Positions 2,290-20,286 of a DNA stretch of 26,861 nucleotides are shown here, in pieces. The translations under genes and the position numbers were made by a program. The notes under the pieces are model-generated. The model had not been told where the DNA came from and made no database searches. It saw only the letters and a program-made list of their open reading frames with translations. Positions within the stretch are counted from its first letter, which is position 1, and every line of letters starts with the position of its first letter. This stretch comes from a virus. Where the stretch lies: the IMG/VR virus record IMGVR_UViG_3300024262_004585, positions 1 to 26,861 of that record, one strand, 5' to 3'.

Positions 2290-2547
2290 TTATGCTTTTT
2301 CATTCTTTTTATATTGATTTATAATAACTTTTAATACATGCCTCGGGGTATTTTCAACAAATTTTACTAGCTCGGTTGTTATGCCTCTGTCGAAGTCTAT
2401 CTGTTTAATTCTTAACGTCTTCATATCAGGTAGAGCTAGAAAATTATATCTTTGTTCCTTCTTATCTTGCATAACATATACAATCATTTGTCCGGCGTAA
2501 TCGCCATGATGAATCGCATATATATTACCTTGTTTTATTTTATGCAT
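2290..2547 (-). CDS. hypothetical protein, 85 aa, last gene of the rml unit
   Basis: I do not recognise this protein. It has 85 residues with alternating hydrophobic segments (IYAIHHGDYAGQMIVYVM, then YNFLALPD) suggesting a small beta-rich domain, followed by a basic amphipathic C-terminal helix ending in Lys-rich residues. The ATG at 2545-2547 overlaps the rmlB stop by 8 bp, so it is translated from the rmlDAB message, but nothing in the protein points to sugar metabolism. A 98-base spacer separates it from RNase H; in that spacer I see the RNase H promoter but no convincing terminator. Confidence 0.7.
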   Translation of the reverse strand: MHKIKQGNIYAIHHGDYAGQMIVYVMQDKKEQRYNFLALPDMKTLRIKQIDFDRGITTELVKFVENTPRHVLKVIINQYKKNEKA

Positions 2548-3499
2548 AAATTTTAACTAATTCTTTTAATTGATTGTCGAAATCCGTATATAGAGGCTCA
2601 TATAATAATTCTTCTTGTATTTTACTACAATCAATACTATAACGGAAATCATGTCCTAATCGATCTTCAACAAATATTGCGTTTTTATCTAAATCCTTAC
2701 CCATAATAGTACAGATTTTATCAACTAATTCAATATTAGTTAATTCTACACCAGATCCGATATTATATATCTCATTTTTACCTTTCGTAGCGACTGCCCA
2801 TACAGCTAAATTATGATCATGTACATGTACCCACTCGCGTATATTAAGACCTTCGCCGTAAATTGGTACTTTCTTACCTTCGCTAAGCGATTTTATAATA
2901 GTCGGTATGAATTTCTCACTATGCTGATTAGGACCATAATTGTTACAGCATCTAGTAATACTAATATTACAATCGAAGGTATTAATATATGCCATACACA
3001 AGAGATCGCTTGATGCCTTACTCGCAGCGTAGGGAGAACGAGGGTTAATTGGGGTCGACTCTAAGAATGAAGGGTCGTTAAAACCCAAATGTCCGTATAC
3101 TTCATCAGTGCTAATATGTACCATTTTTCCATATTTTGCTTTACGGAAACATTCAAGTAAATTTTGCGTACCTACAACGTTTGACTGTATAAAAATAGAT
3201 GGATCTTTAATACTATTATCTACATGAGATTCAGCAGCAAAATGGAATATATAATCAAATTTATCTTCTGTTTTAAATAGCATATCTAGCTTTTTATTGC
3301 ATACTAAATCAAATACATATTCTTTATCGCATAGACTTTCTACATATTTTTTATTTGAAGCATACCCGTTTTTATCTAAACATACAATACGATATTGAGG
3401 AAAATTATCTCTCAAAAACCGTATAAAATTGCCACCTATAAAGCCGTATCCACCTGTTACTAAAATATTCTTACTACTAATTTTACTGCTTATTTTCAT
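2540..3499 (-). CDS. rmlB: dTDP-glucose 4,6-dehydratase
   Basis: Converts dTDP-glucose to dTDP-4-keto-6-deoxyglucose with bound NAD+ (SDR family). It has the Rossmann motif TGGYGFIGG near residue 15, the STDEVYG segment carrying the catalytic Thr-Asp-Glu, and the YAASK active site (Tyr and Lys). The 319-aa length is slightly short for RmlB (about 350). I chose ATG at 3497-3499; a TTG two codons upstream is possible. The start overlaps the rmlA stop by 17 bp. It follows rmlD and rmlA in one unit, so the three enzymes act in sequence from glucose-1-phosphate. Assignment to RmlB is strong; another NDP-sugar 4,6-dehydratase specificity cannot be excluded. Confidence 0.9.
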   Translation of the reverse strand: MKISSKISSKNILVTGGYGFIGGNFIRFLRDNFPQYRIVCLDKNGYASNKKYVESLCDKEYVFDLVCNKKLDMLFKTEDKFDYIFHFAAESHVDNSIKDPSIFIQSNVVGTQNLLECFRKAKYGKMVHISTDEVYGHLGFNDPSFLESTPINPRSPYAASKASSDLLCMAYINTFDCNISITRCCNNYGPNQHSEKFIPTIIKSLSEGKKVPIYGEGLNIREWVHVHDHNLAVWAVATKGKNEIYNIGSGVELTNIELVDKICTIMGKDLDKNAIFVEDRLGHDFRYSIDCSKIQEELLYEPLYTDFDNQLKELVKIYA

Positions 3500-4244
3500 A
3501 TCCAATTTTATTATTTGTTCTCGTTTGTATAGCTTTTACAAAATTACCAGCATCGAGTAAATCGTCGATTGTACCGCAATCAAACCATGCAGCTCCTTTA
3601 TCTAATTTATAAATGCTAATGTTTTTTTCTTTTATATACTGCTTAATTACATCCACGATTTCATATTCCCCCCGCATGCTCTTTTTACAATTTTTGGCTT
3701 TTTCGACGACTGTACTATCAAAAAAGTATAAACCTGGTATAGCATAATTACTAGGAGCGTTCATAGGTTTTTCTACTACATCAATTAATGCACCATCTTC
3801 ATCAAAAGCAGCAACTCCATATGCATTTGGATTATTTACTTCATACCCAAATATAATATTTTCACCTGGTAGTATATTAGCAAGATCATCATTTAATGTA
3901 TCGCTATAAAAAATATTATCACCCAAAGCTAATACAACTGAATGTCCCATAATATAATCTTCAGCTAAAATAAATGCTTGGGCTAAACCGTTAGGTTCCA
4001 TCTGCATTATAATACTATACTTAACTGGTAAATTAAGCTTACTAATTAACCCCTGAAAATTATAATACTGATCAGGTTTGATAATAAAAATAATTTCATC
4101 TACACCAGCATCTAATACCGTTTGTATTGGGTATAGTAGTAGCGGTTTATCATATACCGGTAATACTTGTTTTGAGATACTGTGAGTTAATGGAAATAAA
4201 CGCGTACCGTTACCACCAGCTAAAATTATACCTTTTCTTGCCAT
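3483..4244 (-). CDS. rmlA: glucose-1-phosphate thymidylyltransferase
   Basis: Makes dTDP-glucose from dTTP and glucose-1-phosphate, the first step of the dTDP-6-deoxyhexose pathway. The nucleotidyltransferase signature GGNGTRLFPLT is at residues 8-18, followed by KQVLPVYDKP, the metal-site region LALGDNIF, VVEKP and GLYFFD. The ATG at 4242-4244 lies one base after the rmlD stop and is preceded by an AAAGAAA ribosome site; an open frame extends 23 codons upstream into rmlD, but the family starts at this ATG. At 253 residues it lacks roughly the last 40 residues of the usual 290-aa RmlA, ending just after the region that follows the second sugar-binding segment. Function is clear; the effect of the short C-terminus is unknown. 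Confidence 0.9.
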   Translation of the reverse strand: MARKGIILAGGNGTRLFPLTHSISKQVLPVYDKPLLLYPIQTVLDAGVDEIIFIIKPDQYYNFQGLISKLNLPVKYSIIMQMEPNGLAQAFILAEDYIMGHSVVLALGDNIFYSDTLNDDLANILPGENIIFGYEVNNPNAYGVAAFDEDGALIDVVEKPMNAPSNYAIPGLYFFDSTVVEKAKNCKKSMRGEYEIVDVIKQYIKEKNISIYKLDKGAAWFDCGTIDDLLDAGNFVKAIQTRTNNKIGYENKQ

Positions 4245-4245
4245 A

Positions 4246-5103
4246 TTATTTTCTTTGTAATACCGAGCAATTGAGACGAATATAATATTCTTCATCCCCG
4301 AAATCAAAGTCAAAATCTCTCTTTGCTTTATTATTGTCTAATACGCAATTACTTCTATTTGCTTTAATAGGTAAATCTTCATATGGTACAAACTTCCAAT
4401 TATCATTCTGCAAACCATACTCTGCCATAATCTCTGTAACCTCTCTTGTTGTAAGAGTCTTATTATGTACTGCGTTGTATATACCTGGTTTAAAATTCTC
4501 TACTACTACTTCAATAAACTGGCATAATCTAACTACATCAGTTTTACTATTCTTATAGTCAATAATATTATCATATTTGTTTAATTTAGTAAGTAAATTT
4601 TTATGATCAGCATTACTAGTAACCGGCATTCTAATACGAATTGTATTAGTAAAGTTATTATCTAGCGTTAACTCACATGCATGCTTTGTCTTACTATAAA
4701 AGCTTGACTCGCTGTTATACATACCAAAATTCGGTTCATCTTCTTCTGTATAGTCTTTATCATAACCGGTATAAATACAACCAGAACTTACATTGATAAA
4801 TTTAACACCTGTTGCTTTGCAAACACTTTCAATCGTTTTTGGTAACTTAACATTTAAGTCAAAGCATTCAGCTTTTCTTAACTCACATTCATCTACATTA
4901 GGACTACCAGTAAAACCAGCTGTATTAATAATAACGTCGTATCCTACACCAGCTACTTGATTTACAATTTTATTGTATAAGATGTTATCATCTGAATAAT
5001 CTAACTCTTCACGAGAGTAACAATCGACTGAATGATCAGAACCGTTAAGATATTTAACAAGATATTCAGATATAAAGCCTTTACCCAATATTAATAATTT
5101 CAT
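4246..5103 (-). CDS. rmlD: RmlD-like NAD(P)-dependent dTDP-4-keto-sugar reductase
   Basis: Predicted SDR reductase acting on the 4-keto sugar made by RmlB. The 285-aa protein begins with a nucleotide-binding strand-turn (LLILGKGFISEYL), has NVSSGCIY (serine of the catalytic triad) and the Tyr-x3-Lys pair in YSKTK at about 136-140, and matches the RmlD length of about 290-300 residues. It is the promoter-proximal gene of the rmlD-rmlA-rmlB unit. No rmlC (3,5-epimerase) is in the unit or elsewhere in the window, so it may reduce the keto sugar directly, giving a D-sugar such as dTDP-fucose, rather than complete dTDP-L-rhamnose. The fold is well supported; the exact product is not. Confidence 0.75.
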   Translation of the reverse strand: MKLLILGKGFISEYLVKYLNGSDHSVDCYSREELDYSDDNILYNKIVNQVAGVGYDVIINTAGFTGSPNVDECELRKAECFDLNVKLPKTIESVCKATGVKFINVSSGCIYTGYDKDYTEEDEPNFGMYNSESSFYSKTKHACELTLDNNFTNTIRIRMPVTSNADHKNLLTKLNKYDNIIDYKNSKTDVVRLCQFIEVVVENFKPGIYNAVHNKTLTTREVTEIMAEYGLQNDNWKFVPYEDLPIKANRSNCVLDNNKAKRDFDFDFGDEEYYIRLNCSVLQRK

Positions 5104-5860: not shown

Positions 5861-6604
5861 CTAATTAATTAGGGCTGATACTATATAAATCAATGATACA
5901 TTACCCTTTTTTATATTACAAGTAATTATTCCCATGTCTTGATTAATTTTAAACTCAACTTCTCTACTACCACTAAAGCTTAGTAGTCTAAACGATTCAA
6001 AATTTAATGCAAGTGGTTTCGTTAATGGATCTCCCTCATACTCTTTACTTAACACACATACAAAATTGTCGGTATTATGCCGGCTCTTATCTCCTAACTC
6101 TCCAGAAATATTGCCGTCGTCTTCAAATATATACAACTTCGAAGTCTCGGTAGTAAAAGAACTACCTTTATATAGCATATTTAAGTTAGCTTCGGTAACA
6201 TTAAATGCCGTCTTAAACTCAAGCTTATAAATTTTATTAACATTAATATTAGGTAGTTTAATAATATTATCATCTAAAATATGATATCTAAACTTATAAC
6301 CATCTTTACTATATGATATATTATTACTCTTAATATCAATATTAATTTCAGTTGCTGGTATAATCTCTAAAACTCTAACTAGTTTTTTAATATCTGGTAT
6401 ATTAAGAGTAATACATTCCCCATCACCTATATCAATTTCACATTCTAGATCTGCCTTGCAAACAATAGTCGCATCAGCTGATGCAATTATACATGATATG
6501 TTATTACTAGTAACTTTAAGTACACACATATCATTTAAGTTTGATACTGGTCCAAGAAAGCTGCTAATAAAATCCTTCTTATTTTTTATTTTTAATGTGG
6601 TCAT
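5861..6604 (-). CDS. 45: sliding clamp, T4 gp45-like
   Basis: Trimeric ring that tethers polymerase to DNA and, in T4, also activates late transcription through gp33 and gp55. The 247-aa protein (T4 gp45 has 228) shows the clamp pattern of repeated beta-alpha-beta units: an N-terminal helix region, VLKVTSNNISCIIASADATIV as strand pair, a second domain starting near FKTAFNVTEANL, and a C-terminal beta strand. No enzymatic motif is expected. Neighbours gp32 and gp59 support the call. The gene has its own extended -10 promoter. The clamp loader genes 44 and 62, adjacent in T4, are absent here and must be elsewhere in the genome if present. Confidence 0.8.
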   Translation of the reverse strand: MTTLKIKNKKDFISSFLGPVSNLNDMCVLKVTSNNISCIIASADATIVCKADLECEIDIGDGECITLNIPDIKKLVRVLEIIPATEINIDIKSNNISYSKDGYKFRYHILDDNIIKLPNINVNKIYKLEFKTAFNVTEANLNMLYKGSSFTTETSKLYIFEDDGNISGELGDKSRHNTDNFVCVLSKEYEGDPLTKPLALNFESFRLLSFSGSREVEFKINQDMGIITCNIKKGNVSLIYIVSALIN

Positions 6605-7156: not shown

Positions 7157-8026
7157 TTACAGATCTAAGCCAGCTAGCAAGTCTTGGATTTCAGCATCGT
7201 CGCTTACAGTGACTGGCTTAGCCTGCTCTGTGACTACTGCAGGTTTATTCATAATATCCGCAGCGGTCGTGTTAGCAGTTAGTTGACCTGGTAGACTTTC
7301 GCTACGCTCGGAATCTGCATCCTTACATAGGATATGCTCACTTACCATTTGCTTAAGTTCATCATAACTCTTGAACTTAAAAATAGTCGCGAGTTCTGTA
7401 GCTGACTTATAAATATCTGCAAACTTAGATTCTTCAAGACCCTTAATTTCAGTAGGGAAAGAGAATTTGGATGAAACATATGTCGGGTATTCGCCTTGCT
7501 TATCAACAATAATCTTAAAATTAACCCCCTCTGGGCTTAAGTCAAATACTCGAGCTCCGAGATCTGCAGAATCTTCACCATTAATAGCACTAGTAATAAC
7601 TTTGTGTAACTGCTTACCATATCGTAATACCATTACTTTACCGTTATTATCTGGGGTAACCGGGTCATTAACCACATACACGTTAACTAACCATTTTTCA
7701 GAGCGAAGAATCTTACTTGCATTTGCTTGATCTACGTCATTACCTCTATATAGTTTATATCGATATTCTGCGATAGGATCTCTCTCATCGAAAGTCTGGG
7801 GAGATAATGCACTGACATACTGACCAGTTGCAAAGCTATTCCAACCATGTTGAAAGTAGTGAAAGAATGTATTCTTAGGATCGACAGAGTAGGGTAAGAT
7901 ACGAACGGTATATGTATTACCTGGTTCAGTTCGTAAGATATTGGTGGATGCAGACTTATCATCACTAGAAGCGAGCGCGTCGCGAATTGATTCAAACATT
8001 GATTTTGTTATTGTATTTGTATTCAT
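7157..8026 (-). CDS. 32: single-stranded DNA-binding protein, T4 gp32-like
   Basis: Coats ssDNA and organises the replisome and recombination machinery. The 289-aa protein has a basic/Ser-rich N-terminal part, an OB-fold core (NTYTVRILPYS, then FFHYFQHGWNSF), and an acidic C-terminal tail ending in DLLAGLDL, like the T4 gp32 tail that contacts partners. Unlike T4 gp32, the core has no cysteines where the His-Cys3 zinc ligands should be; the only Cys is near residue 233. The ATG at 8024-8026 is 6 bases from a TATAAT; ATG at codon 10 is an alternative but has no ribosome site. Position after gene 59 matches T4 gene order. Confidence 0.85.
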   Translation of the reverse strand: MNTNTITKSMFESIRDALASSDDKSASTNILRTEPGNTYTVRILPYSVDPKNTFFHYFQHGWNSFATGQYVSALSPQTFDERDPIAEYRYKLYRGNDVDQANASKILRSEKWLVNVYVVNDPVTPDNNGKVMVLRYGKQLHKVITSAINGEDSADLGARVFDLSPEGVNFKIIVDKQGEYPTYVSSKFSFPTEIKGLEESKFADIYKSATELATIFKFKSYDELKQMVSEHILCKDADSERSESLPGQLTANTTAADIMNKPAVVTEQAKPVTVSDDAEIQDLLAGLDL

Positions 8027-9367: not shown

Positions 9368-10690
9368 TTAATTACTCAACATACCTAGCACAGTAGATAA
9401 TTCACTTAGGTCACCATCATCATTTAACGACACATCTTCATGAACGGTTAATGTCTTAGAATCAAGTCTCATTTGATTACTACCAAAATTTGGGCCGAAT
9501 CTATTTTTCATAATATGAATATTAATAATATTAAGTTCTTTATCTTCATCACTTTGAGTAATACCTATAATAACATCAGCAGTTGCAGCTAATCCAATAC
9601 TCTCGCCAATACTATCTAGTTTAGGTATATCGACGTCATAACCTGATCTGTTAAGTTGCGTTGCACTAATAATAGGGCAGTTAAACTTATATGTTAAAGC
9701 TCTAATCTCTTCTGCTGCTGATTTAATTCTTTCATACATATTAGTGTTCATCGAACCCTTAATTAGGTTAATATAATCTAATACAATTGCATCTACTTTA
9801 ATACCTTTTAACTGTAACGTTTTAATGTAGCTAGCAATTTGCTGGGAGGTAATTGTATTTGGTGGGAATTCCTTAATTATAATCTTACCAAAATCAGGAG
9901 ATTTATTCATCTCAGAGATAGTGTGTTTGAGAGTAGCAGCTTCATCTGCTAAGCTTGCAATGGGTATTTTCGTTATATCTGATGCTAAGCGACAGCCATA
10001 CATTATATCACTCATTTCGAGAGATATAACAACTACATTCATACCTTGTCTACTTATATTAACGGCGATATTACCTAAGAATATACTCTTACCTACATTT
10101 GTCTGACCTGCAAATACATAAAATGCTCTGCCGTTAGACTTAAACCCACCATCAAGCTTTTCATCCAGCCATGGCCATAAAGTTGAAATTACAGGTCGAT
10201 CACTAGTTATCTCGTCAATTAGAGTATCTATATTATCAAATAAATCTAACCCAATATCATTTTTAAGATCAATTTGACAGCTTTTTTCAAAACGCTCTAA
10301 AATATAACTAGTATCTACTTTACCCTGCGTTATATCTTCCGCTACCTCCATCATTGTATGGTATATTGACCGCTCTTTAAGGTACCTCTCGGTATTTTCT
10401 AATAACTCATCATTATTTAAATTTTTATCAATTTCATTAAACACTCCCGATACGGATCTAAAAGCCTCTTTAACGTCGTCGTTAACAAGATATGTTTTAA
10501 GTTCGGTTATAGTAGGTGGTACACCCCTCTTATTAAAAAAATCTTTAATAACCGTAAATATAATTTTAATATTCTTATTTGCTATAATAGCGGGGTCTAC
10601 GTGACTAATAATATCTGAGAGATATTTGGCATCAGTTAAACTCTTATAAATAAGAACCTTTTCGAAATAATCTAAATCTATTTTTTCCAT
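9368..10690 (-). CDS. 41: replicative DNA helicase, T4 gp41-like (DnaB family)
   Basis: Hexameric 5'-3' helicase that unwinds the fork and partners primase gp61. The 440-aa protein has an N-terminal helical domain (about 1-150), then a RecA-type motor with Walker A GQTNVGKS at 195-202, VVISLEMSD, a Walker B strand AIVLDYINLI, and SATQLNRSG with the DnaB-type sensor glutamine. T4 gp41 has 475 residues. The ATG (10688-10690) overlaps the stop of the upstream glycosyltransferase by 13 bp, so the helicase is co-transcribed with it. Confidence 0.92.
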   Translation of the reverse strand: MEKIDLDYFEKVLIYKSLTDAKYLSDIISHVDPAIIANKNIKIIFTVIKDFFNKRGVPPTITELKTYLVNDDVKEAFRSVSGVFNEIDKNLNNDELLENTERYLKERSIYHTMMEVAEDITQGKVDTSYILERFEKSCQIDLKNDIGLDLFDNIDTLIDEITSDRPVISTLWPWLDEKLDGGFKSNGRAFYVFAGQTNVGKSIFLGNIAVNISRQGMNVVVISLEMSDIMYGCRLASDITKIPIASLADEAATLKHTISEMNKSPDFGKIIIKEFPPNTITSQQIASYIKTLQLKGIKVDAIVLDYINLIKGSMNTNMYERIKSAAEEIRALTYKFNCPIISATQLNRSGYDVDIPKLDSIGESIGLAATADVIIGITQSDEDKELNIINIHIMKNRFGPNFGSNQMRLDSKTLTVHEDVSLNDDGDLSELSTVLGMLSN

Positions 10691-11418: not shown

Positions 11419-11781
11419 TTATTTTTTCTTTGGTGATTTAGGTTCGTTATGATACGACCTATCATCAAGTTCTGGTCTCGTCTCTCTAAACTCGATCATA
11501 CCCATTATGTTCCAGAGAGCTGCACTTAAATGATCTTCACTACCATCCCCTACCCAATCCGCCATCAAATGTCTCATTGCTGAATCATATAGCACAGAAT
11601 GCTTCATACCTAATTTCCAGTTATGTTCATTATACGCTTCAGCCCCTTGTAAATATCTCAACATAACTGATTCTAAAGCTTTATGTGGTACTAAACTCAT
11701 ACGTAACTTGCCTTCGCCGCTATCACGCTGTGCTCCAGTTTCAAATTGCCGCGGCTTACCTGTTGTCTTTAGATCATCCAT
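11419..11781 (-). CDS. dATP/dGTP diphosphohydrolase-like protein (DUF5664 type)
   Basis: A 120-aa protein matching the conserved pattern of the phage family annotated as dATP/dGTP diphosphohydrolase N-terminal (DUF5664): ETGAQRDS at 14-21, GKLRMSLVP, GAEAYNEHNWKLG ending at 58, DSAMRHLMADW, and EDHLSAALWN at 82-91. The charged His/Glu/Asp residues in these blocks are the likely metal ligands, as in all-alpha MazG-type NTP pyrophosphohydrolases. A role in removing dGTP or dATP would fit genome base modification or dNTP-pool control. ATG (11779-11781) is 6 bases from a TATAAT. The C-terminus is a Lys-rich tail. Family call is good, the substrate is inferred. Confidence 0.75.
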   Translation of the reverse strand: MDDLKTTGKPRQFETGAQRDSGEGKLRMSLVPHKALESVMLRYLQGAEAYNEHNWKLGMKHSVLYDSAMRHLMADWVGDGSEDHLSAALWNIMGMIEFRETRPELDDRSYHNEPKSPKKK

Positions 11782-11816
11782 ATAGAAATTATACTATCTT
11801 TTGTTAAAGAAATCAA
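11782..11816 (-). promoter_or_regulatory. sigma70-like promoter, TATAAT 6 bases before ATG
   Basis: TTGATT at 11811-11816 (inside the formyltransferase 3' end), 17-bp spacer, TATAAT at 11788-11793, then 6 bases to the ATG of the DUF5664 gene. Confidence 0.65.
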
Positions 11817-12330
11817 GCCATAGATTAAGCGATATGGATTTAAGGGTACTAAACATTTCATCTAACGTAGTGCATTTATTTTCTATTCCGCGAGAGAGAA
11901 CTACGCTACCTTCATCTACTCCAGGTGTCACATGGTGAATAACAGATCCAATGCGGCTATATTTACCATTAAATGCTTTAACTTGAGGGTCTTTACCTTT
12001 CAGGCATTCAAACTCCGTTATCAGTCCAGGATGACCGTTATATATGTCATACTCTTCACATATCTCTTTAGGTACAATACTAAGCCATCCATGTAATGTA
12101 ATATAACACTCCTTAGGGTCCCCCAGCATTGCTCGTAACGCTTTTACGTCTTTAGAATGCTCATACGGCAGACTAAAAAGGCTATATGAGCAGAGCCTTG
12201 CAAGGTCGCGATTAATGGTATGTCTACTACTAAGTTTATGGTTGTGTATAACGACATCTGGTACAACGCCCGATCGTATTAGATCGACGATTTCAGTACC
12301 TGTCTGCGAAAATAATGCTATATGTTTCAT
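11794..12330 (-). CDS. formyltransferase-domain protein (PurN/Fmt fold)
   Basis: A 178-aa single-domain protein of the N10-formyl-tetrahydrofolate formyltransferase fold. The catalytic triad is present: Asn98 and His100 in NGHPGLI and Asp139 in TPGVDEGSVVL. It lacks the C-terminal tRNA-binding domain of methionyl-tRNA formyltransferase and is slightly shorter than PurN. The HGWLSIVP segment before the active site is also typical. It could formylate an amino sugar, as in LPS sugar formyltransferases, or be PurN-like. Its ATG overlaps the amidotransferase stop by ATGA, so translation of the two is coupled, which hints at a joint pathway. Confidence 0.8.
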   Translation of the reverse strand: MKHIALFSQTGTEIVDLIRSGVVPDVVIHNHKLSSRHTINRDLARLCSYSLFSLPYEHSKDVKALRAMLGDPKECYITLHGWLSIVPKEICEEYDIYNGHPGLITEFECLKGKDPQVKAFNGKYSRIGSVIHHVTPGVDEGSVVLSRGIENKCTTLDEMFSTLKSISLNLWLDFFNKR

Positions 12331-13004
12331 AATGTTAAAAATGGTGAATCGTATGCAAATGTATCAAGTTCTACTAGGCCCTCAGCTGTATATCCGTATA
12401 ATATACCTTCTTTTACTTCTGTATAACCATCACCTTTAATAGATGATACATTAGCATCTTTATAAAACAAAGTACTGCCTTGTCTTGCTATATAAACGTT
12501 CATTGTTTTAATATTCACAATCCATACTGCAAATGTACCTTTCAATTTTTCAATTGTATATAAAATATTCTGTATTTCTGTATCTGAATCTTCACATGGT
12601 CCGAGATTATACTCGAATTCATCTAATAAAGCTGGTATTACACTACTATCAACGGGATTATCATGATCTGGTAGGTATTCATCAATTAACTCATTGTAAT
12701 TAGTTAAAACTCCATTATGAGCTACTATCCAGTCTCCAGACCTAAATGGGTGTGATGTTTTTTCTTTCCATTCTCTAGCAGAACTTGTCGGCGCTTGATT
12801 ATGACCAAGATATATAAAATCTCCTACATCTCCTTGTGGTAATTTAACTTCATTCCAGTTAATACCACCTTCATACTTTTTAACATCATAGTTAGATGAA
12901 CGATATACATGAAATATACCAGTAGAGAAATTACCCCTCTTTTTATTAGCTTCTTCGAGTACCTCGAACGTTGAGAGATCATTACTTAAATAAATACCGC
13001 ACAT
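12327..13004 (-). CDS. class-II glutamine amidotransferase domain protein
   Basis: An Ntn-type GATase, predicted to release ammonia from glutamine. Cys2 (MCGIYL) is the N-terminal nucleophile, GHNQAPT at 67-73 the substrate-binding loop and HNG at 96-98 part of the oxyanion hole. The usual Arg of the GHTR loop, which binds the glutamine carboxylate, is Gln70. At 225 residues it is only the glutaminase domain, without the synthetase partner found in GlmS, PurF or AsnB, so the acceptor enzyme must be separate. Candidates in the window are QueC (as in archaeal/phage Gat-QueC) or a sugar enzyme. It is the first gene of a unit with the formyltransferase. Confidence 0.85.
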   Translation of the reverse strand: MCGIYLSNDLSTFEVLEEANKKRGNFSTGIFHVYRSSNYDVKKYEGGINWNEVKLPQGDVGDFIYLGHNQAPTSSAREWKEKTSHPFRSGDWIVAHNGVLTNYNELIDEYLPDHDNPVDSSVIPALLDEFEYNLGPCEDSDTEIQNILYTIEKLKGTFAVWIVNIKTMNVYIARQGSTLFYKDANVSSIKGDGYTEVKEGILYGYTAEGLVELDTFAYDSPFLTL

Positions 13005-13040
13005 ATAATGATATTATAGTAGAAATATGTCAGAAATCAA
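13005..13040 (-). promoter_or_regulatory. sigma70-like promoter of the amidotransferase unit
   Basis: TTGATT at 13035-13040, 16-bp spacer, TATAAT at 13013-13018, 8 bases to ATG. Its -35 overlaps the late-type box of the divergent plus-strand gene by 2 bp. Confidence 0.65.
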
Positions 13041-13051
13041 TAAATATTATT
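13039..13051 (+). promoter_or_regulatory. T4-late-type promoter box before the plus-strand island
   Basis: AATAAATA at 13039-13046 matches the T4 late box TATAAATA in 7 of 8 positions, followed by 5 bases (TTATT) and ATG. A late box centred 10 bp upstream of +1 would place +1 on the A of ATG. Confidence 0.55.
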
Positions 13052-14500
13052 ATGAACTTTATTTCGTGGGCAACTAAACCAACTATTATTAACGAAAATA
13101 CGCAGAACTACATTTTTAGCGACTTAGTAGAGGAGAAAACATTAATAGGCGGTGCATTAGGACCTATTGCCGGTCTAATAAAATCTCAAATAGGAAGTAC
13201 AGGATTTAGAGATGTACGTATTTTATTTTATCAGTGGCTGCGTAAAAATTATCCAGATTCCATACCTTCTGAATTTATGGAAAAATTTGAAACGCGTAAA
13301 CCTAGCGCGAAGGATGTAAATGACCTCATTAGAGGTATTGAATCGGAATTATCTCCGGAAGCAGTTAATGATATAAAAACAGAATTCACAGAATGGTGTA
13401 CTACTGATAATGCTCATGGCGCGACATTTGAAGATAAGGATGGTAAGAAGAAACTTATGAGTAATGCTGCTGATTTCGTTAATACGTTAGCTACTTTACG
13501 AGACAAAAAGGGTGTAAGACCTAAAGCAGGTATAGGTAGAAAAATTCACGATTATAGTCAAGTATCTACATCTGATATTGCGAATAAAAACATCGAAAGT
13601 GAGAGAGAGCGAAAAGCTGCTGAAAGGGAACAGCGAAAGAGTAGTATAAGAGGTAGTGATATTTCCAATGAAGCAATATCTATTAAAATTCTAGTTGCGC
13701 AAATGCTTGAAACCGCACGTAAAGATCTTCAAGATAATCCTGTATCAGCTGAAGCTGATGAGATGAGAGAAGGAGTTCTAATGAACATTGCTGATGCTTT
13801 CACAAAAATTAGATCCATAGATCGATTTAGTTTATTTCTCGATCAGTTAAAAGAATATGATGAGTATGATGGTGTACGTATTGAACTCGAAGATGTGCTG
13901 GATGCTGTTGAAACTGATGTAGCTGAAAGAGATGCTAAGTCGATGGTTGATACTCAAATAGAAGATGAAGAGCATGAACAAGAAGGTAATTACCCTGCCC
14001 GCGAGCAAAAAGAAAATCTTGTAGGTATGGAAGCTGTATTAGACAATGAACGATCGGTAATAATAGTTGATCATGAACCCGGAACCAGGTTTGTTTTTGT
14101 CCAGGATGAAGATAGTAATGAGTATAAGGTACCTCTTAGTAGATTAGACTTTCGTGTAGCTCCAGAAAATGGAGAGCATGAGCAAGAAGAAGTATCATTA
14201 GAAGATGCTATAACATTATCACACGAGGAATACGAAGCAGTTCAAAACTTCCAAAACTTTAACCCCGACGAATGGCAGGAAAAAGAGGATGGCAGCGGAT
14301 GGGAAAGAAAACCTCAAGCTGAAGAAGCTGAAGAGGATTCAACTAATCGTTATATGTCAAAAGCTCCTATTGAAAAGAGAGAAGAAGCTGAAGAGGTAAA
14401 AATGTCTCAACTAGAAATTAATCAATATCTTGCTGTTCAAGAAAGACAGAGAGTTCAAAATCTCTATGCACAACAAAGACGCCATACATACGGTTACTAA
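13052..14500 (+). CDS. unknown Glu-rich late protein, 482 aa
   Basis: I do not recognise this protein. The N-terminal part (residues 1-60) includes a Gly/Ala-rich IGGALGPIAGLI segment, then a globular helical region to about 170, a highly charged Glu/Arg/Lys helix near 180-210, a second helical region, a short beta-rich section around 340-370 (SVIIVDHEPGTRFVFVQDED) that resembles an SH3-like small barrel, and a very acidic Glu-rich C-terminal part with repeated HEQE and EEAEE. I chose ATG at 13052, 5 bases after a late-type box; an upstream in-frame extension of 27 codons overlaps the divergent promoter and is less likely. Late expression and composition suggest a virion or assembly protein, but that is inference. 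Confidence 0.75.
   Translation: MNFISWATKPTIINENTQNYIFSDLVEEKTLIGGALGPIAGLIKSQIGSTGFRDVRILFYQWLRKNYPDSIPSEFMEKFETRKPSAKDVNDLIRGIESELSPEAVNDIKTEFTEWCTTDNAHGATFEDKDGKKKLMSNAADFVNTLATLRDKKGVRPKAGIGRKIHDYSQVSTSDIANKNIESERERKAAEREQRKSSIRGSDISNEAISIKILVAQMLETARKDLQDNPVSAEADEMREGVLMNIADAFTKIRSIDRFSLFLDQLKEYDEYDGVRIELEDVLDAVETDVAERDAKSMVDTQIEDEEHEQEGNYPAREQKENLVGMEAVLDNERSVIIVDHEPGTRFVFVQDEDSNEYKVPLSRLDFRVAPENGEHEQEEVSLEDAITLSHEEYEAVQNFQNFNPDEWQEKEDGSGWERKPQAEEAEEDSTNRYMSKAPIEKREEAEEVKMSQLEINQYLAVQERQRVQNLYAQQRRHTYGY
14321..14396 (+). repeat. 16-bp direct repeat, 60 bp apart, in the Glu-rich gene
   Basis: GAAGAAGCTGAAGAGG occurs at 14321-14336 and again at 14381-14396, exactly 20 codons apart and in the same frame, encoding EEAEE in both places. 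Confidence 0.6.
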
Positions 14501-14804
14501 ATTTAATCAGCTGTTGGAAATGGTTGATAAGGCCGATTTCCAACAGTATAAAGAGTTTGATTTAAACGCGGATTCAGCTGACGATAAGTATGATGATATA
14601 TCTCTTACCGGGGATTTAAAAGCATACAATCAAAAGCAATTACAAGCTCTTAAAGATTATGCGAGTAAACAATTACCGGATGAGAGTGATGCTGATATAG
14701 AGATGTTTATGATAAAAGCTTTGAGTAACCCAAAAACTCATAACGTTATGAGACAGCATATAGCGTATCATAACCCTGAGTTATTTGAGTATATTAACAA
14801 ATAG
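14466..14804 (+). CDS. hypothetical protein, 112 aa
   Basis: I do not recognise this protein. It is acidic and mainly helical (KFNQLLEMVDKADF, then LKAYNQKQLQALKDYASKQL and DADIEMFMIKALSN), soluble, with no cysteines. I chose ATG at 14466, which overlaps the preceding gene by 35 bp; ATG at 14520 is an alternative and would lie inside a perfect inverted repeat (14511-14546). An upstream TTG is unlikely. The gene ends convergently with queC, their 3' ends overlapping by 11 bp. It is the second gene of the plus-strand island and is probably co-expressed with the Glu-rich protein. Confidence 0.65.
   Translation: MHNKDAIHTVTKFNQLLEMVDKADFQQYKEFDLNADSADDKYDDISLTGDLKAYNQKQLQALKDYASKQLPDESDADIEMFMIKALSNPKTHNVMRQHIAYHNPELFEYINK
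14511..14546 (+). repeat. perfect 11-bp inverted repeat at the start of the 112-aa gene
   Basis: CTGTTGGAAAT (14511-14521) and ATTTCCAACAG (14536-14546) around a 14-base loop. It starts 11 bases after the stop of the upstream gene, and it encloses the alternative start ATG at 14520. It could form an RNA hairpin that controls translation of the second gene. Confidence 0.6.
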
Positions 14805-15543
14805 CTTTGCAACCATTCTTTTCATATACAGCATCTAATTTATCTTGCTGTGTATATAAAAGAGGATCTCTTAGCTTAGCATCTATAAAGCCTTTTAAAC
14901 GTAAGCTGCTGCTAGCAGACTCAGCGTCACAAGGGTATTCGCCAGAATAACAAGTATATGTATCATCGAAGTTAACCCCTAGAGAAACGCCGTCTAATAC
15001 AATATCTTTCTTAGACATCCTTACTAAAGGTGCAACCAACTTAATAACAGTCTCGCGATTTAACGCTGCAAGATTATTAAATGTATCAATGAACTCATTT
15101 GACGAATCCCAGTAACCAGCTAAACTATCCGCTTCAGCAGCCCCATACCAGATCTCTGATGCTTTTACTGCTTCCGCGTAAGATGCTAATATACTTATAA
15201 ACATTAAATTACGGAATGGTACATAACTCTTCGGTTGAGCTTCACCCATAATATCATTTACATTAGGTGTATCAATATCATCATTCGTAAGTGATGAAGT
15301 AGGTGCAATCTCTTTAATATACTTTACATCTAGTAACTTATTCGTAAACGTAACATTAGGAAAATCATGCTTAGCGTTTAATAATTGCTTCTTAGCAGCT
15401 ACTAACTCCCTATCATGTCGTTGACCGTAATCAAACGTAACAGTATGGACTTCTCTATACAATTCTGCAGCTTTATACAACAGTACTGCTGAATCCATTC
15501 CTCCAGATAATGTAACTATGACTTTTTTATTTTGCATCTTCAT
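14794..15543 (-). CDS. queC: 7-cyano-7-deazaguanine synthase, QueC
   Basis: Converts 7-carboxy-7-deazaguanine to preQ0 using ATP and ammonia. The PP-loop SGGMDS is at 13-18; TFDYGQRHDREL, SYVPFRN at 106-112 and the GYWDSSNEFI segment are typical. The zinc-binding block is altered: Cys198 and Cys205 are present but the last two ligands of the usual C-x2-C-x2-R pattern are Ser209 and Ser212. Two extra cysteines appear at the C-terminus (Cys245, Cys249). The start overlaps the uvsX stop by 17 bp; ATG at 15537 is an alternative. Other 7-deazaguanine genes (FolE, QueD, QueE, DpdA) are not in the window. A use in phage DNA modification is an inference. Confidence 0.88.
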   Translation of the reverse strand: MKMQNKKVIVTLSGGMDSAVLLYKAAELYREVHTVTFDYGQRHDRELVAAKKQLLNAKHDFPNVTFTNKLLDVKYIKEIAPTSSLTNDDIDTPNVNDIMGEAQPKSYVPFRNLMFISILASYAEAVKASEIWYGAAEADSLAGYWDSSNEFIDTFNNLAALNRETVIKLVAPLVRMSKKDIVLDGVSLGVNFDDTYTCYSGEYPCDAESASSSLRLKGFIDAKLRDPLLYTQQDKLDAVYEKNGCKAIC

Positions 15544-16666
15544 TAATTAATACTTCTTCTGATTGTTGATACTCGATAACTTCATCTGGAATTTCTTCTG
15601 GTGTATCATCATTAATTTTATTACCATACTTCCACTCGACTTTAATCTTTTCTTCAATAACTGGTACAATAGTATTATCCCAAAGTTCCTTATCATCTTT
15701 CCACTTCGAATAGTAGCCGAGCTTAGTACCATCTGGTAAAGAATACGTTGCTCCTGATTGTATAACTGCCCCTAAACCGACTGCTAAGTCTAATAGACCG
15801 TAATATTTGTTTAAACCTCTCTCGAATGAAAGATACATTTCACCTTCTAAATACTGCTTAACGAAACGATTCTTAACTGTTAACGCTCTTAGAATAACTC
15901 CAGAATAACTCTTCTGTAATGCTGCTAGTTTACCATCTGTATTCTTATCTTCTTTAACTGGCTTACGAGCTAATTGAATGGTAACTGACGGTAAGTATAC
16001 AGCAGCAGTACCACCTGGCATTGCTTTTACAAGAGTTGGAAACATCGCAGAAGGGTCTTCGTAAATGTGATTTGTAGCAAGAATAGTTGTCTTAGTTAAT
16101 CCAGATAATTGAGTACAAGTTCTAAGAAGAGTTTTCATTGCTTTAGCTCTACTACCCATATCAGCACTTACATTATTTTTAGTCATTCGGCCGATCTGCA
16201 GCTGACTCTCCATATTACCTAAAGAGTCAATAGCGATAATAAATTTACCTTCTTGACCCTTTTCTTTAACCTTCATTAAGAAGTCGTAAATTGTATTTCG
16301 GCATTCTTCGATACTAAATACCGGTACATACTTTACTTTACTTACATCTAAACCTAATGCTTCAGCACCGTCTTTATCAATAGCATTTTCACTATCAAAG
16401 ATGACCGGTATAAGGCCTTCTTTTTGAGCGTTTGCTAGAATCTTTTGTAAGATAAATGACTTACCTGTCATCGATGGACCTGCTAAAAGAGTCATTCTAT
16501 TTTTTGGAATACCTCCAAATAACGAACCGGAAACAATACCGTTAAGTACCATCGACCCGGTATCGATCCAACCATCTACATTACTAAGAGCACTTTCATT
16601 TAAAAAAGATGCGTATGGGTTTGTTTTATCAATAACGGATAAAATGTCGTCAGTCTCTTTACTCAT
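15527..16666 (-). CDS. uvsX: RecA-like recombinase, UvsX
   Basis: Strand-exchange protein for recombination-dependent replication and repair, working with UvsY and gp32. The 379-aa protein (T4 UvsX about 390) has Walker A GPSMTGKS at 63-70, a VIFDSENAID strand with the catalytic glutamate region, Walker B FIIAIDSLGNM, a DNA-binding loop region with MGSRAKAMKTLLR and ILATNHIYEDP, and an acidic C-terminal tail. The ATG (16664-16666) follows a TATAAT by 7 bases and an AAGG ribosome site lies between them. It is followed by queC with a short overlap. Confidence 0.92.
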   Translation of the reverse strand: MSKETDDILSVIDKTNPYASFLNESALSNVDGWIDTGSMVLNGIVSGSLFGGIPKNRMTLLAGPSMTGKSFILQKILANAQKEGLIPVIFDSENAIDKDGAEALGLDVSKVKYVPVFSIEECRNTIYDFLMKVKEKGQEGKFIIAIDSLGNMESQLQIGRMTKNNVSADMGSRAKAMKTLLRTCTQLSGLTKTTILATNHIYEDPSAMFPTLVKAMPGGTAAVYLPSVTIQLARKPVKEDKNTDGKLAALQKSYSGVILRALTVKNRFVKQYLEGEMYLSFERGLNKYYGLLDLAVGLGAVIQSGATYSLPDGTKLGYYSKWKDDKELWDNTIVPVIEEKIKVEWKYGNKINDDTPEEIPDEVIEYQQSEEVLINEDAK

Positions 16667-17697: not shown

Positions 17698-17731
17698 ACC
17701 TTTATTATATATTATAACATGTTATAATCAA
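17698..17731 (-). promoter_or_regulatory. sigma70-like promoter with palindromic spacer
   Basis: TTGATT at 17726-17731, 16-bp spacer, TATAAT at 17704-17709, 6 bases to ATG. The spacer is almost entirely taken up by an 18-bp perfect palindrome (17711-17728). The 6 bases before ATG are AAAGGT. Confidence 0.65.
17711..17728. repeat. 18-bp perfect palindrome in a promoter spacer
   Basis: ATTATAACATGTTATAAT is its own reverse complement. It lies between the -35 and -10 of the promoter of the 122-aa gene, overlapping the -35 by 3 bp. A repressor operator at this place would block RNA polymerase. Confidence 0.55.
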
Positions 17732-20286
17732 CTTAAAAGATCGAATAAATTTGTCTGCGTTAATGAGCCAGGCTTCTGAACTGACCAGTTAACATTCACA
17801 TAAAATCGTTCGATCGCAGAGAAGATAATCTTTTCAAACATTTTTTCATAATCAATATGAAATATCTTTTTAAATTGATCCGGGTAGTAGTACTTATATG
17901 CAACATTTCCTATATTATAAGCATTTGGTCTCTCTACATAAAAATACCTAACCTTATCACCACTACCAATTGGCTCGTATTCATTCTCAATATTAAATTT
18001 CTTAAGAAGTAAATTATGATAATACGCCGCTTTAGCATGACCAGGCATGCCTTTAGCAGTTTTAAAGCCGTCGCAACCTGAAGCATATTTTTCGTAATTC
18101 TTAATACCGGATACGAACGCGATATCTTCTACCGGTAGACTCTTAAATGTTTTATACGCTTCGTTTAATACCTTATTAGTCTTTGTAATATCTTGAGTAC
18201 TTAACATCGTCTCAATAATATCCTTTACATACGGTTTAATTGCAGCTGGCATAGTGCTTCTAACAACCTCGACGCCGGTATATTTGTATTTGTCCATCTC
18301 AATACCTTCATCATCTAAAATATGCATTACATACCGCTTTTTTTGCAAGAACACTCCCACATCTGCAATTACCTCTCGCTTAAATACAAATCTACAATCT
18401 TTCGAATTTAAATTTTTAACGCCCCATACCTTAATATGTTTATTCAGATAGTCTTCAATATTCTGAACCTCTGTATATAACTCTGGAGTTAATTTACCGT
18501 CAGTACCTTTAAATTCAATATCAGTATTATCTATAATAGATTTAATAGAAATGTATGAGCTATCAGTATCGTTATATATAACGCATCCATTTAATATAGC
18601 TTCGTCAGTTATGTTTACCCTTTCGGTAATATAGTTTTTAAGTAAGTCATTAGACTTCTTAATTACCGATTGACCGGTAAGGGTAATCGATGCAGCTATA
18701 TCATCGTCACCAAATGGTGCATGCTTATTTCCGAAGTATCCATAAATTGAGTTAATGAAAATCTTAATACAAAGTTGTTTAGAGTCTAGCTGATCAATCT
18801 TAACTTTAGTCGATTTATTCTTATTCTTACTATACTCATGCTTTAAGGTAGTAAGCTCCTTCTTAATTTCGACACGCTTACTATAGTATTCATCAAGAAT
18901 CTCAGGCATAACTCCTTTCCGCTTTTGTGTAAACAAGACATTAGCTCTACTAATTGCAATCTCTTCATCCTTTACAAACTTTATAAAGTTACTCATCGGT
19001 AGAGTAAATGTCTTACCGTTTACGTGTCGAATAGTTACGTCTTTATCAGTCTTCTCCTCAATTTTACCTACCTTAGTTTCAGGTGAAATATTTAATGATA
19101 TCATTACGTTCGGATATAGTGAATTAGCATCAAAAGATATAATATTTTGTTGAAATCCGTTTAAAGGTTCACCTACATAGGCCCCAGGATTCTTACCGGT
19201 ATCTTCATTGCGAATAAATGTATGAATAATCTGATTACGGCGACGACCTCTAATAGCAGTAGCTCCATTAATTACGGATAATGCTCCCATCGCAGCTTCA
19301 AAGGTAGTTAATCCTGTATATGCTAACATTCGAATTAACTCTATATATTTTAATTTAACCTCTAAATGCTTAAGCAATCTAACGTCCTGAATATTATAAT
19401 CCACAAACGTCTGCCAATCCTCATCAGATAGTGTAGCGAGATTCATATTACCAAACTCTACCTTATTCTGCCCTAACTCAATCTCACCAATAGCATCAAG
19501 CTTATAGCTCTCGCGTAAGCCTTGAGTGAACTTCTTATATACATCCAGATAGTCAATTAGGGATATACCTTCAATATACCACTTTACTTGCTCCTGACCG
19601 AATTGACCTCTAATAGTTCGACTATAAACATTACCTGTTGGTGATAGTCGATCTACCCATTCATCCCCAAGTATGCGACGGCAACGATTAACAATATATG
19701 GTATATCAAAGAATTCAGAATTCCAACCAGATAGAATATCTGGATAATCAATTTCTAAATGCTGTATAAAAGCTTTAAATAAATCCTTTTCATCTGCACA
19801 TTTAACGTAAGTAACATCATCTTGAGTATTTTCATAATCGTTTAATCCCCAGGTTATAAATTTATCTGATAGAGAATCGTATACTGTTATAACGTTTACC
19901 AGGTGATTAGCGCTTATAATATCCGGGAAGGTATCAGGCGAGTAAGTCTCAATGTCGATAAACATTGTCTTGATCGGATGAGTATTAAATTCCAACTCTT
20001 CATTTACCTTCCAGTAAGTATCCACCAGAAATTGCTGAGGTAAAGGTATATTCTCAAATACTCTTTTAATACCTGAATCTTTTAAGAATTTATACCTACT
20101 ATACTGATTATTAAATTTCTTCTTAATCAGTTTAGTACCAAAGATCGATTCGTAATTACCGTTACCTTCTATATACAGGTATGGTTCAACAGTAGTTTCG
20201 AATCTAATTCGATTACCATCTTCATCCCAGGTAAATAGCGTTACGGTATTTTCACGTCCATTATAAATTGCATTACGGTAGCTCAC
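17728..20286 (-). CDS. 43: family B DNA polymerase, T4 gp43-like
   Basis: Replicative polymerase with 3'-5' proofreading. The 852-aa protein has exonuclease motifs DIET at 111-114, GWNSEFFDIPYI around 187-198 and YNIQDVRLL at 297-305 (Asp301), then polymerase motifs FDANSLYPNV at 385-394, KIFINSIYGYFGN at 508-520 and the catalytic YNDTDS at 571-576. All catalytic acids are present. T4 gp43 has 898 residues. The C-terminus ends QTNLFDLLS, a clamp-binding-type peptide. Start is GTG at 20284-20286 with AGGTAG just before it and TATAAT 6 bases upstream. No intein or frameshift seen. Confidence 0.95.
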   Translation of the reverse strand: MSYRNAIYNGRENTVTLFTWDEDGNRIRFETTVEPYLYIEGNGNYESIFGTKLIKKKFNNQYSRYKFLKDSGIKRVFENIPLPQQFLVDTYWKVNEELEFNTHPIKTMFIDIETYSPDTFPDIISANHLVNVITVYDSLSDKFITWGLNDYENTQDDVTYVKCADEKDLFKAFIQHLEIDYPDILSGWNSEFFDIPYIVNRCRRILGDEWVDRLSPTGNVYSRTIRGQFGQEQVKWYIEGISLIDYLDVYKKFTQGLRESYKLDAIGEIELGQNKVEFGNMNLATLSDEDWQTFVDYNIQDVRLLKHLEVKLKYIELIRMLAYTGLTTFEAAMGALSVINGATAIRGRRRNQIIHTFIRNEDTGKNPGAYVGEPLNGFQQNIISFDANSLYPNVMISLNISPETKVGKIEEKTDKDVTIRHVNGKTFTLPMSNFIKFVKDEEIAISRANVLFTQKRKGVMPEILDEYYSKRVEIKKELTTLKHEYSKNKNKSTKVKIDQLDSKQLCIKIFINSIYGYFGNKHAPFGDDDIAASITLTGQSVIKKSNDLLKNYITERVNITDEAILNGCVIYNDTDSSYISIKSIIDNTDIEFKGTDGKLTPELYTEVQNIEDYLNKHIKVWGVKNLNSKDCRFVFKREVIADVGVFLQKKRYVMHILDDEGIEMDKYKYTGVEVVRSTMPAAIKPYVKDIIETMLSTQDITKTNKVLNEAYKTFKSLPVEDIAFVSGIKNYEKYASGCDGFKTAKGMPGHAKAAYYHNLLLKKFNIENEYEPIGSGDKVRYFYVERPNAYNIGNVAYKYYYPDQFKKIFHIDYEKMFEKIIFSAIERFYVNVNWSVQKPGSLTQTNLFDLLS

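Follow-up and report, generated by a model that had tools for sequence, protein, structure and literature searches.

Separate QueC and amidotransferase genes with alternative acyltransferases in a probable 7-deazaguanine DNA-modification pathway of T4-like phages

A 26,861-base fragment of an uncultured virus (~26.9 kb, not a full genome; hereafter the window) probably encodes the later part of a phage pathway for 7-deazaguanine DNA modification, in which a split, glutamine-dependent QueC, QueF, DpdA and a formyltransferase (FT) would lead to formyl-preQ1. FolE2, QueD and QueE, expected elsewhere in the genome as seen in sister contigs, would convert GTP to 7-carboxy-7-deazaguanine. QueC would then form preQ0 with ammonia that a separate class-II glutamine amidotransferase (Gat) releases by hydrolysing glutamine, and QueF would convert preQ0 to preQ1. 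DpdA would put the deazaguanine into phage DNA in place of guanine and, before or after this insertion, the FT would formylate the aminomethyl group to give 7-(formylamino)methyl-7-deazaguanine. Sister phages carry a GNAT acetyltransferase in the FT slot, which would give the acetyl form. The prediction is of a specific chemical group on the DNA of T4-like phages from a widespread, uncultivated lineage.

QueC and a stand-alone amidotransferase

The phage behind the window is T4-like and without a close isolate: its family-B DNA polymerase shares only ~32% identity with the nearest match among isolates. In order of minus-strand transcription it carries uvsX, queC, gat, the FT gene and genes for a MazZ-like hydrolase, a glycosyltransferase and a DnaB-type helicase, with a plus-strand island between queC and gat (Table 1). 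The first-pass annotation had described QueC and a separate class-II Gat, both on the minus strand, and this description holds, with the island filling a 1.79 kb gap between them. Absent from that annotation was the FT gene, which overlaps the end of gat by 4 bases.

Table 1. Features of the window discussed in the text
Feature	Position	Strand	Remarks
RmlB/RmlA/RmlD-like dTDP-sugar genes	2540-5103		within replication region
Clamp-like gene	5861-6604		
SSB-like gene	7157-8026		
DnaB/gp41-type replicative helicase	9368-10690	-	type tracks acyltransferase type across relatives
MazZ-like dATP/dGTP diphosphohydrolase	11419-11781	-	PF18909, 6.6e-19; follows FT in same run
FT, DpdN-like	11794-12330	-	PurN-type catalytic N98-H100-D139; ATGA overlap with Gat
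Gat, stand-alone class-II (N-terminal Cys) glutamine amidotransferase; 225 aa	12327-13004	-	GATase_6 5.9e-08, over cut-off
Plus-strand island, two overlapping ORFs	12971-14804	+	12971-14500 (likelier start ~13052) and 14430-14804; no match to a known family
QueC, 7-cyano-7-deazaguanine synthase; 249 aa	14794-15543	-	Pfam QueC 7.6e-52; NCBIfam TIGR00364 over cut-off
UvsX recombinase	15527-16666	-	upstream of queC, 17-base overlap
Polymerase gene	17728-20286		

The window QueC retains the SGGxDS, YxQxHxxE and VPxRN motifs, which are present in every QueC aligned, and the essential Tyr after the first zinc Cys (Y199); these motifs and the residues essential in E. coli QueC, most of which the window protein retains, have been defined previously (PMC13329287). 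Two of the four zinc Cys are missing (CYSGEYPCDAESASS). In place of the canonical C(x)8CxxCxxC site stands C(x)6C followed by E/N and S, and the YPDC of QueC reads YWDS. Two of the four Cys are missing in 8/8 close relatives aligned. Among phage QueCs from Gat-clade or DpdA loci the zinc motif is lacking in 60/68: the full motif is absent from 45/47 QueCs of the Gat family and 15/16 from DpdA clusters without Gat, and intact in 5/5 from a second type of Gat-bearing cluster. It is also intact in the QueC of contig G016. Because loss of the site is usual in phage QueCs of these pathways, it is by itself no argument for a dead enzyme.

Gat begins MCGIY and keeps C2, N97-G98 and D119, with Q70 (in GHNQAPT) at the position of the glutamine-binding Arg of GlmS; R77 is invariant among 30 relatives. 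The AlphaFold model (pLDDT 91) predicts a class-II glutaminase fold, the nearest solved structures being the glutaminase domains of GFAT/GlmS and PurF (best E 6e-12).

The QueC-Gat arrangement is conserved far beyond chance, QueC being visible on the sequence covered in 63 of the 82 Gat-family contigs. The two are separate genes in the window and stay unfused even where adjacent: in G016, QueC and a window-type Gat lie 5 nt apart on the same strand with no island, which makes the island look like an insertion into the pair. The island is fast-evolving, with overlapping ORFs of 509 aa and 124 aa in the window and a gene number that varies among relatives. A distant stand-alone Gat that shares the HxQAPT signature directly follows QueC in a second lineage, inside complete DpdA clusters (QueE, FolE, DpdA, FT, kinase, QueF, QueC, Gat and QueD; e.g., L144, L160 and L162). 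Together with the G016 pair, this agrees with the initial proposal that Gat and QueC are separate partners. Ammonia supply to QueC would be the simplest role for Gat, and in each of two independent lineages a stand-alone Gat may serve QueC as its glutamine partner.

Partner genes and the expected DNA base

The first-pass annotation had proposed a 7-deazaguanine DNA-modification pathway, suggested a genome search for folE, queD, queE and dpdA, and held that the lack of a DpdA-type gene would count against it. The 26.9-kb record is too short to tell, but relatives supply all four partners, as DpdA, FolE2, QueD and QueE, in keeping with the proposed pathway. DpdA is present in 7/17 Gat-family contigs (E 1e-96 to 1e-114), comprising all three of at least 185 kb and four shorter ones, and alignment of the family to the tRNA-guanine transglycosylase profile places the catalytic Asp in register (hhalign probability 94.5, E 7.5e-08). 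Each of the three long contigs (G008, G009 and G010; 185-221 kb) carries DpdA, a kinase, QueF, FolE2, QueD, QueE, QueC and Gat. FolE2, QueD and QueE also occur in G001, G004 and G012; of these, G001 has a QueC 97% identical to that of the window, and G012 resembles the window in having the FT beside Gat. No contig carries both DpdA and the window-type FT-Gat pair, contigs with this pair being at most 61 kb, and we infer DpdA and QueF in the window phage from its relatives.

When the window and seven of its relatives were searched with the Pfam TGT model, no DpdA came up, phage DpdA being too divergent. Profile candidates for DpdA in G001 and G004, both fragments, proved to be false matches to a glycosyltransferase and a GMP-reductase-like protein. 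The latter (L024:3096-4148, G004) resembles GMP reductase/IMPDH by sequence and is a possible guanine-nucleotide supply gene. A conserved P-loop kinase (AAA_28, thymidylate-kinase/NadR-like) lies directly between DpdA/FT and QueF at L197:3233-3787 and more than 100 other loci. These phages have FolE2 (PF02649; L015:15032-16075 and L019:7812-8864) rather than FolE, and FolE2 goes unmentioned in the main text of a 2019 phage survey (PMC6884629).

QueF of the relatives matches Pfam QueF_N and QueF. In G008-G011 and G016 it has the catalytic Cys/Asp and bears the NADPH-reductase signature (ESKSIKLY and SNCRVTSQPDWGD), the ESKSxKLY motif distinguishing nitrile reductases from QueF-like amidinotransferases. 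Because of this signature, preQ1 rather than G+ is the expected base for acylation, and a nitrile-reductase QueF accompanied by an FT points to formyl-preQ1 in DNA. Phage QueF gives dPreQ1 in Dp-1 and HVTV-1 (PMC6884629).

The gene set also resembles that of phage 9g and the Queuovirinae (dG+), where a class-II Gat and QueC occur with DpdA, QueD, QueE and a GTP cyclohydrolase. In 9g, however, Gat and QueC are fused, whereas the window genes are separate and Gln replaces Arg in the glutamine loop. The DpdA of the window's relatives belongs to another subfamily than that of 9g, with no hhalign match between them, and the relatives carry a reductase QueF and an acyltransferase. Gat and QueC could nevertheless make G+, or halt at preQ0, in the manner of the 9g fusion, with DpdA inserting the product. 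Indeed, 9g Gat-QueC with DpdA yields dG+ (PMC6884629), and the convincing phage relatives of Gat are, one other protein aside, all Gat-QueC fusions. Against this, no QueF is annotated in the 9g cluster, while the long relatives combine a reductase-type QueF with one amine acyltransferase, and FT clusters such as that of Flavobacterium phage vB_FspM_immuto_2-6A lack Gat in the stretch examined, which argues that the FT acts in the QueF rather than the Gat pathway. We consider a G+ or preQ0 product unlikely. The initial suggestion of such an end product is not supported: the NADPH-reductase QueF and amine acyltransferase of the long relatives point to acylated preQ1, and dPreQ0 or dG+ is probably not the best candidate.

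Formyltransferase or acetyltransferase in one slot

The formyl-preQ1 reading draws on the linkage of the FT. Among 66 viral contigs outside the Gat family that were recruited by FT sequence alone, 63 have a DpdA-type gene, 64 the P-loop kinase and 61 QueF; the three without DpdA are short. The FT directly follows DpdA (within 1 kb in 62/63, with a median FT start 7 bases ahead of the DpdA end), and the order DpdA-FT-kinase-QueF is found in 59/59. All members of the family have the Asn-His-Asp triad known from PurN-type formyltransferases, and in the FT tree those linked to Gat, including that of the window, group as a single clade nested in the DpdA-linked family. We take the window FT to be DpdN-like, by its match in family, place after DpdA and PurN-type active site to DpdN; DpdN was reportedly described by Cui et al. 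2023 (NAR 51:9214) as a dPreQ1 formyltransferase, and formylated preQ1 is a reported type of base. The FT shows both the homology and the linkage to DpdA/QueF clusters expected of DpdN, but differs in that the window gene has moved next to Gat and that a GNAT takes its slot in sister phages.

The closest isolate relative of the FT is gp204 of phage immuto (43% identity), which lies between DpdA and QueF in the cluster QueD-QueE-FolE-DpdA-formyltransferase-kinase-QueF. The two systems share pathway genes and a QueC without the zinc motif. They differ in that the immuto region has no annotated Gat, places the FT between DpdA and QueF instead of beside Gat, and encodes FolE where the window's relatives have FolE2. 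The immuto DpdA is in turn 44% identical to that of Campylobacter Firehammervirus CP220, where the same kind of kinase follows and no formyl- or acetyltransferase is annotated beside DpdA within the 25 kb examined. Deazaguanine is present in the DNA of the Firehammervirus genus (PMC8713573).

Two other roles for these acyltransferases deserve consideration. Because a sister phage (G001) has amino-sugar genes, a sugar could be the substrate of an amine acylase, and the FT or GNAT might work in amino-sugar metabolism, on sugar nucleotides or on glycans of the virion or DNA, and sit beside Gat by chance. The Rml-type genes in the window and a fold common to sugar N-formyltransferases and the FT would fit. 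However, the constant gene order that the FT keeps with DpdA, kinase and QueF in 63/66 independent FT contigs, best PDB profile matches to PurN and not to sugar enzymes, and the presence in G008 of a second, different kind of formyltransferase that is likely the sugar enzyme make a sugar role very improbable. That G008 gene (45826-46518) had appeared as a weak FT match and was set aside. The G001 amino-sugar cluster encodes a DegT aminotransferase, a PIG-L deacetylase and a radical SAM-SPASM protein.

Alternatively, the phage genes might raise queuosine in host tRNA while leaving phage DNA unmodified, or the FT might be the PurN of purine synthesis. FolE2, QueD, QueE, QueC and QueF do also make tRNA queuosine, and the FT matches the PurN model at 2.6e-07; yet its score of 30.4 bits falls far below the NCBIfam equivalog cut-off of 150.1, every relative contig of at least 185 kb has a DpdA-type gene, and the eight records searched for a canonical TGT yielded none. 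We regard this as scarcely credible, and return to a DNA base carrying an acyl group.

The slot after Gat holds one acyltransferase type or the other. Across the 82 Gat-family contigs it contains the FT in 17, the GNAT in 59, neither in 6 (cut or another type) and both in 0. The junction is clean, with an identical gat end followed by FT or GNAT and then MazZ. The GNAT model (pLDDT 89) matches N-acetyltransferases. Exactly one acyltransferase type is found on each of 11 contigs in which both the Gat and DpdA loci are visible: six have the GNAT and no FT of the DpdN-like family anywhere, and five lack the GNAT but have the FT in the DpdA module. For independent contigs, which these are not, a 6/5 split like this would have a chance of 1 in 462. 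About 51 DpdA modules near the clade of these Gat-family contigs have no FT between DpdA and the kinase; more distant modules have one.

The simplest reading is that the GNAT replaces the FT and would acetylate preQ1. We found no relatives of the GNAT in 50,697 phage records or in GTDB genomes (pattern-based scan), and a literature search found no acetylated preQ1 DNA base; acetyl-preQ1 would apparently be a DNA base new to the literature. These phages apparently form a natural pair of lineages that differ by a single acyl group, and it becomes testable whether particular restriction or glycosylase defences are overcome by acylation.

Acyltransferase type and the replisome

Acyltransferase type follows core replisome genes, not the neighboring base-synthesis genes. 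In quick trees of the helicase, SSB-like, clamp-like and polymerase proteins, one change separates FT from GNAT phages, with 100% local support for the split in the helicase tree (53 rows). Trees of Gat, QueC, UvsX, MazZ and the glycosyltransferase encoded between FT and helicase need 6-7 changes. Repeated swapping of FT and GNAT, suggested by the 6-7 label changes in the Gat tree, was dropped: because the replisome-gene trees need one change, a single switch combined with exchange of the Gat, QueC, UvsX, MazZ and glycosyltransferase genes between two lineages is simpler.

The co-segregation of acyltransferase and replisome is perfect, and it may reflect either lineage history or function. In the first case FT and GNAT phages would be two lineages with exchange limited to their more similar genes; in the second, the replisome would be matched to the modified base. 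We tentatively suggest, as a possibility somewhat short of probable, that DNA contains formyl-preQ1 in the window lineage and acetyl-preQ1 in the GNAT lineage, with helicase, SSB, clamp and polymerase matched to the acyl type. The MazZ-like hydrolase gene adjoins FT or GNAT in the relatives as well, and its product could possibly link dGTP pools to guanine replacement.
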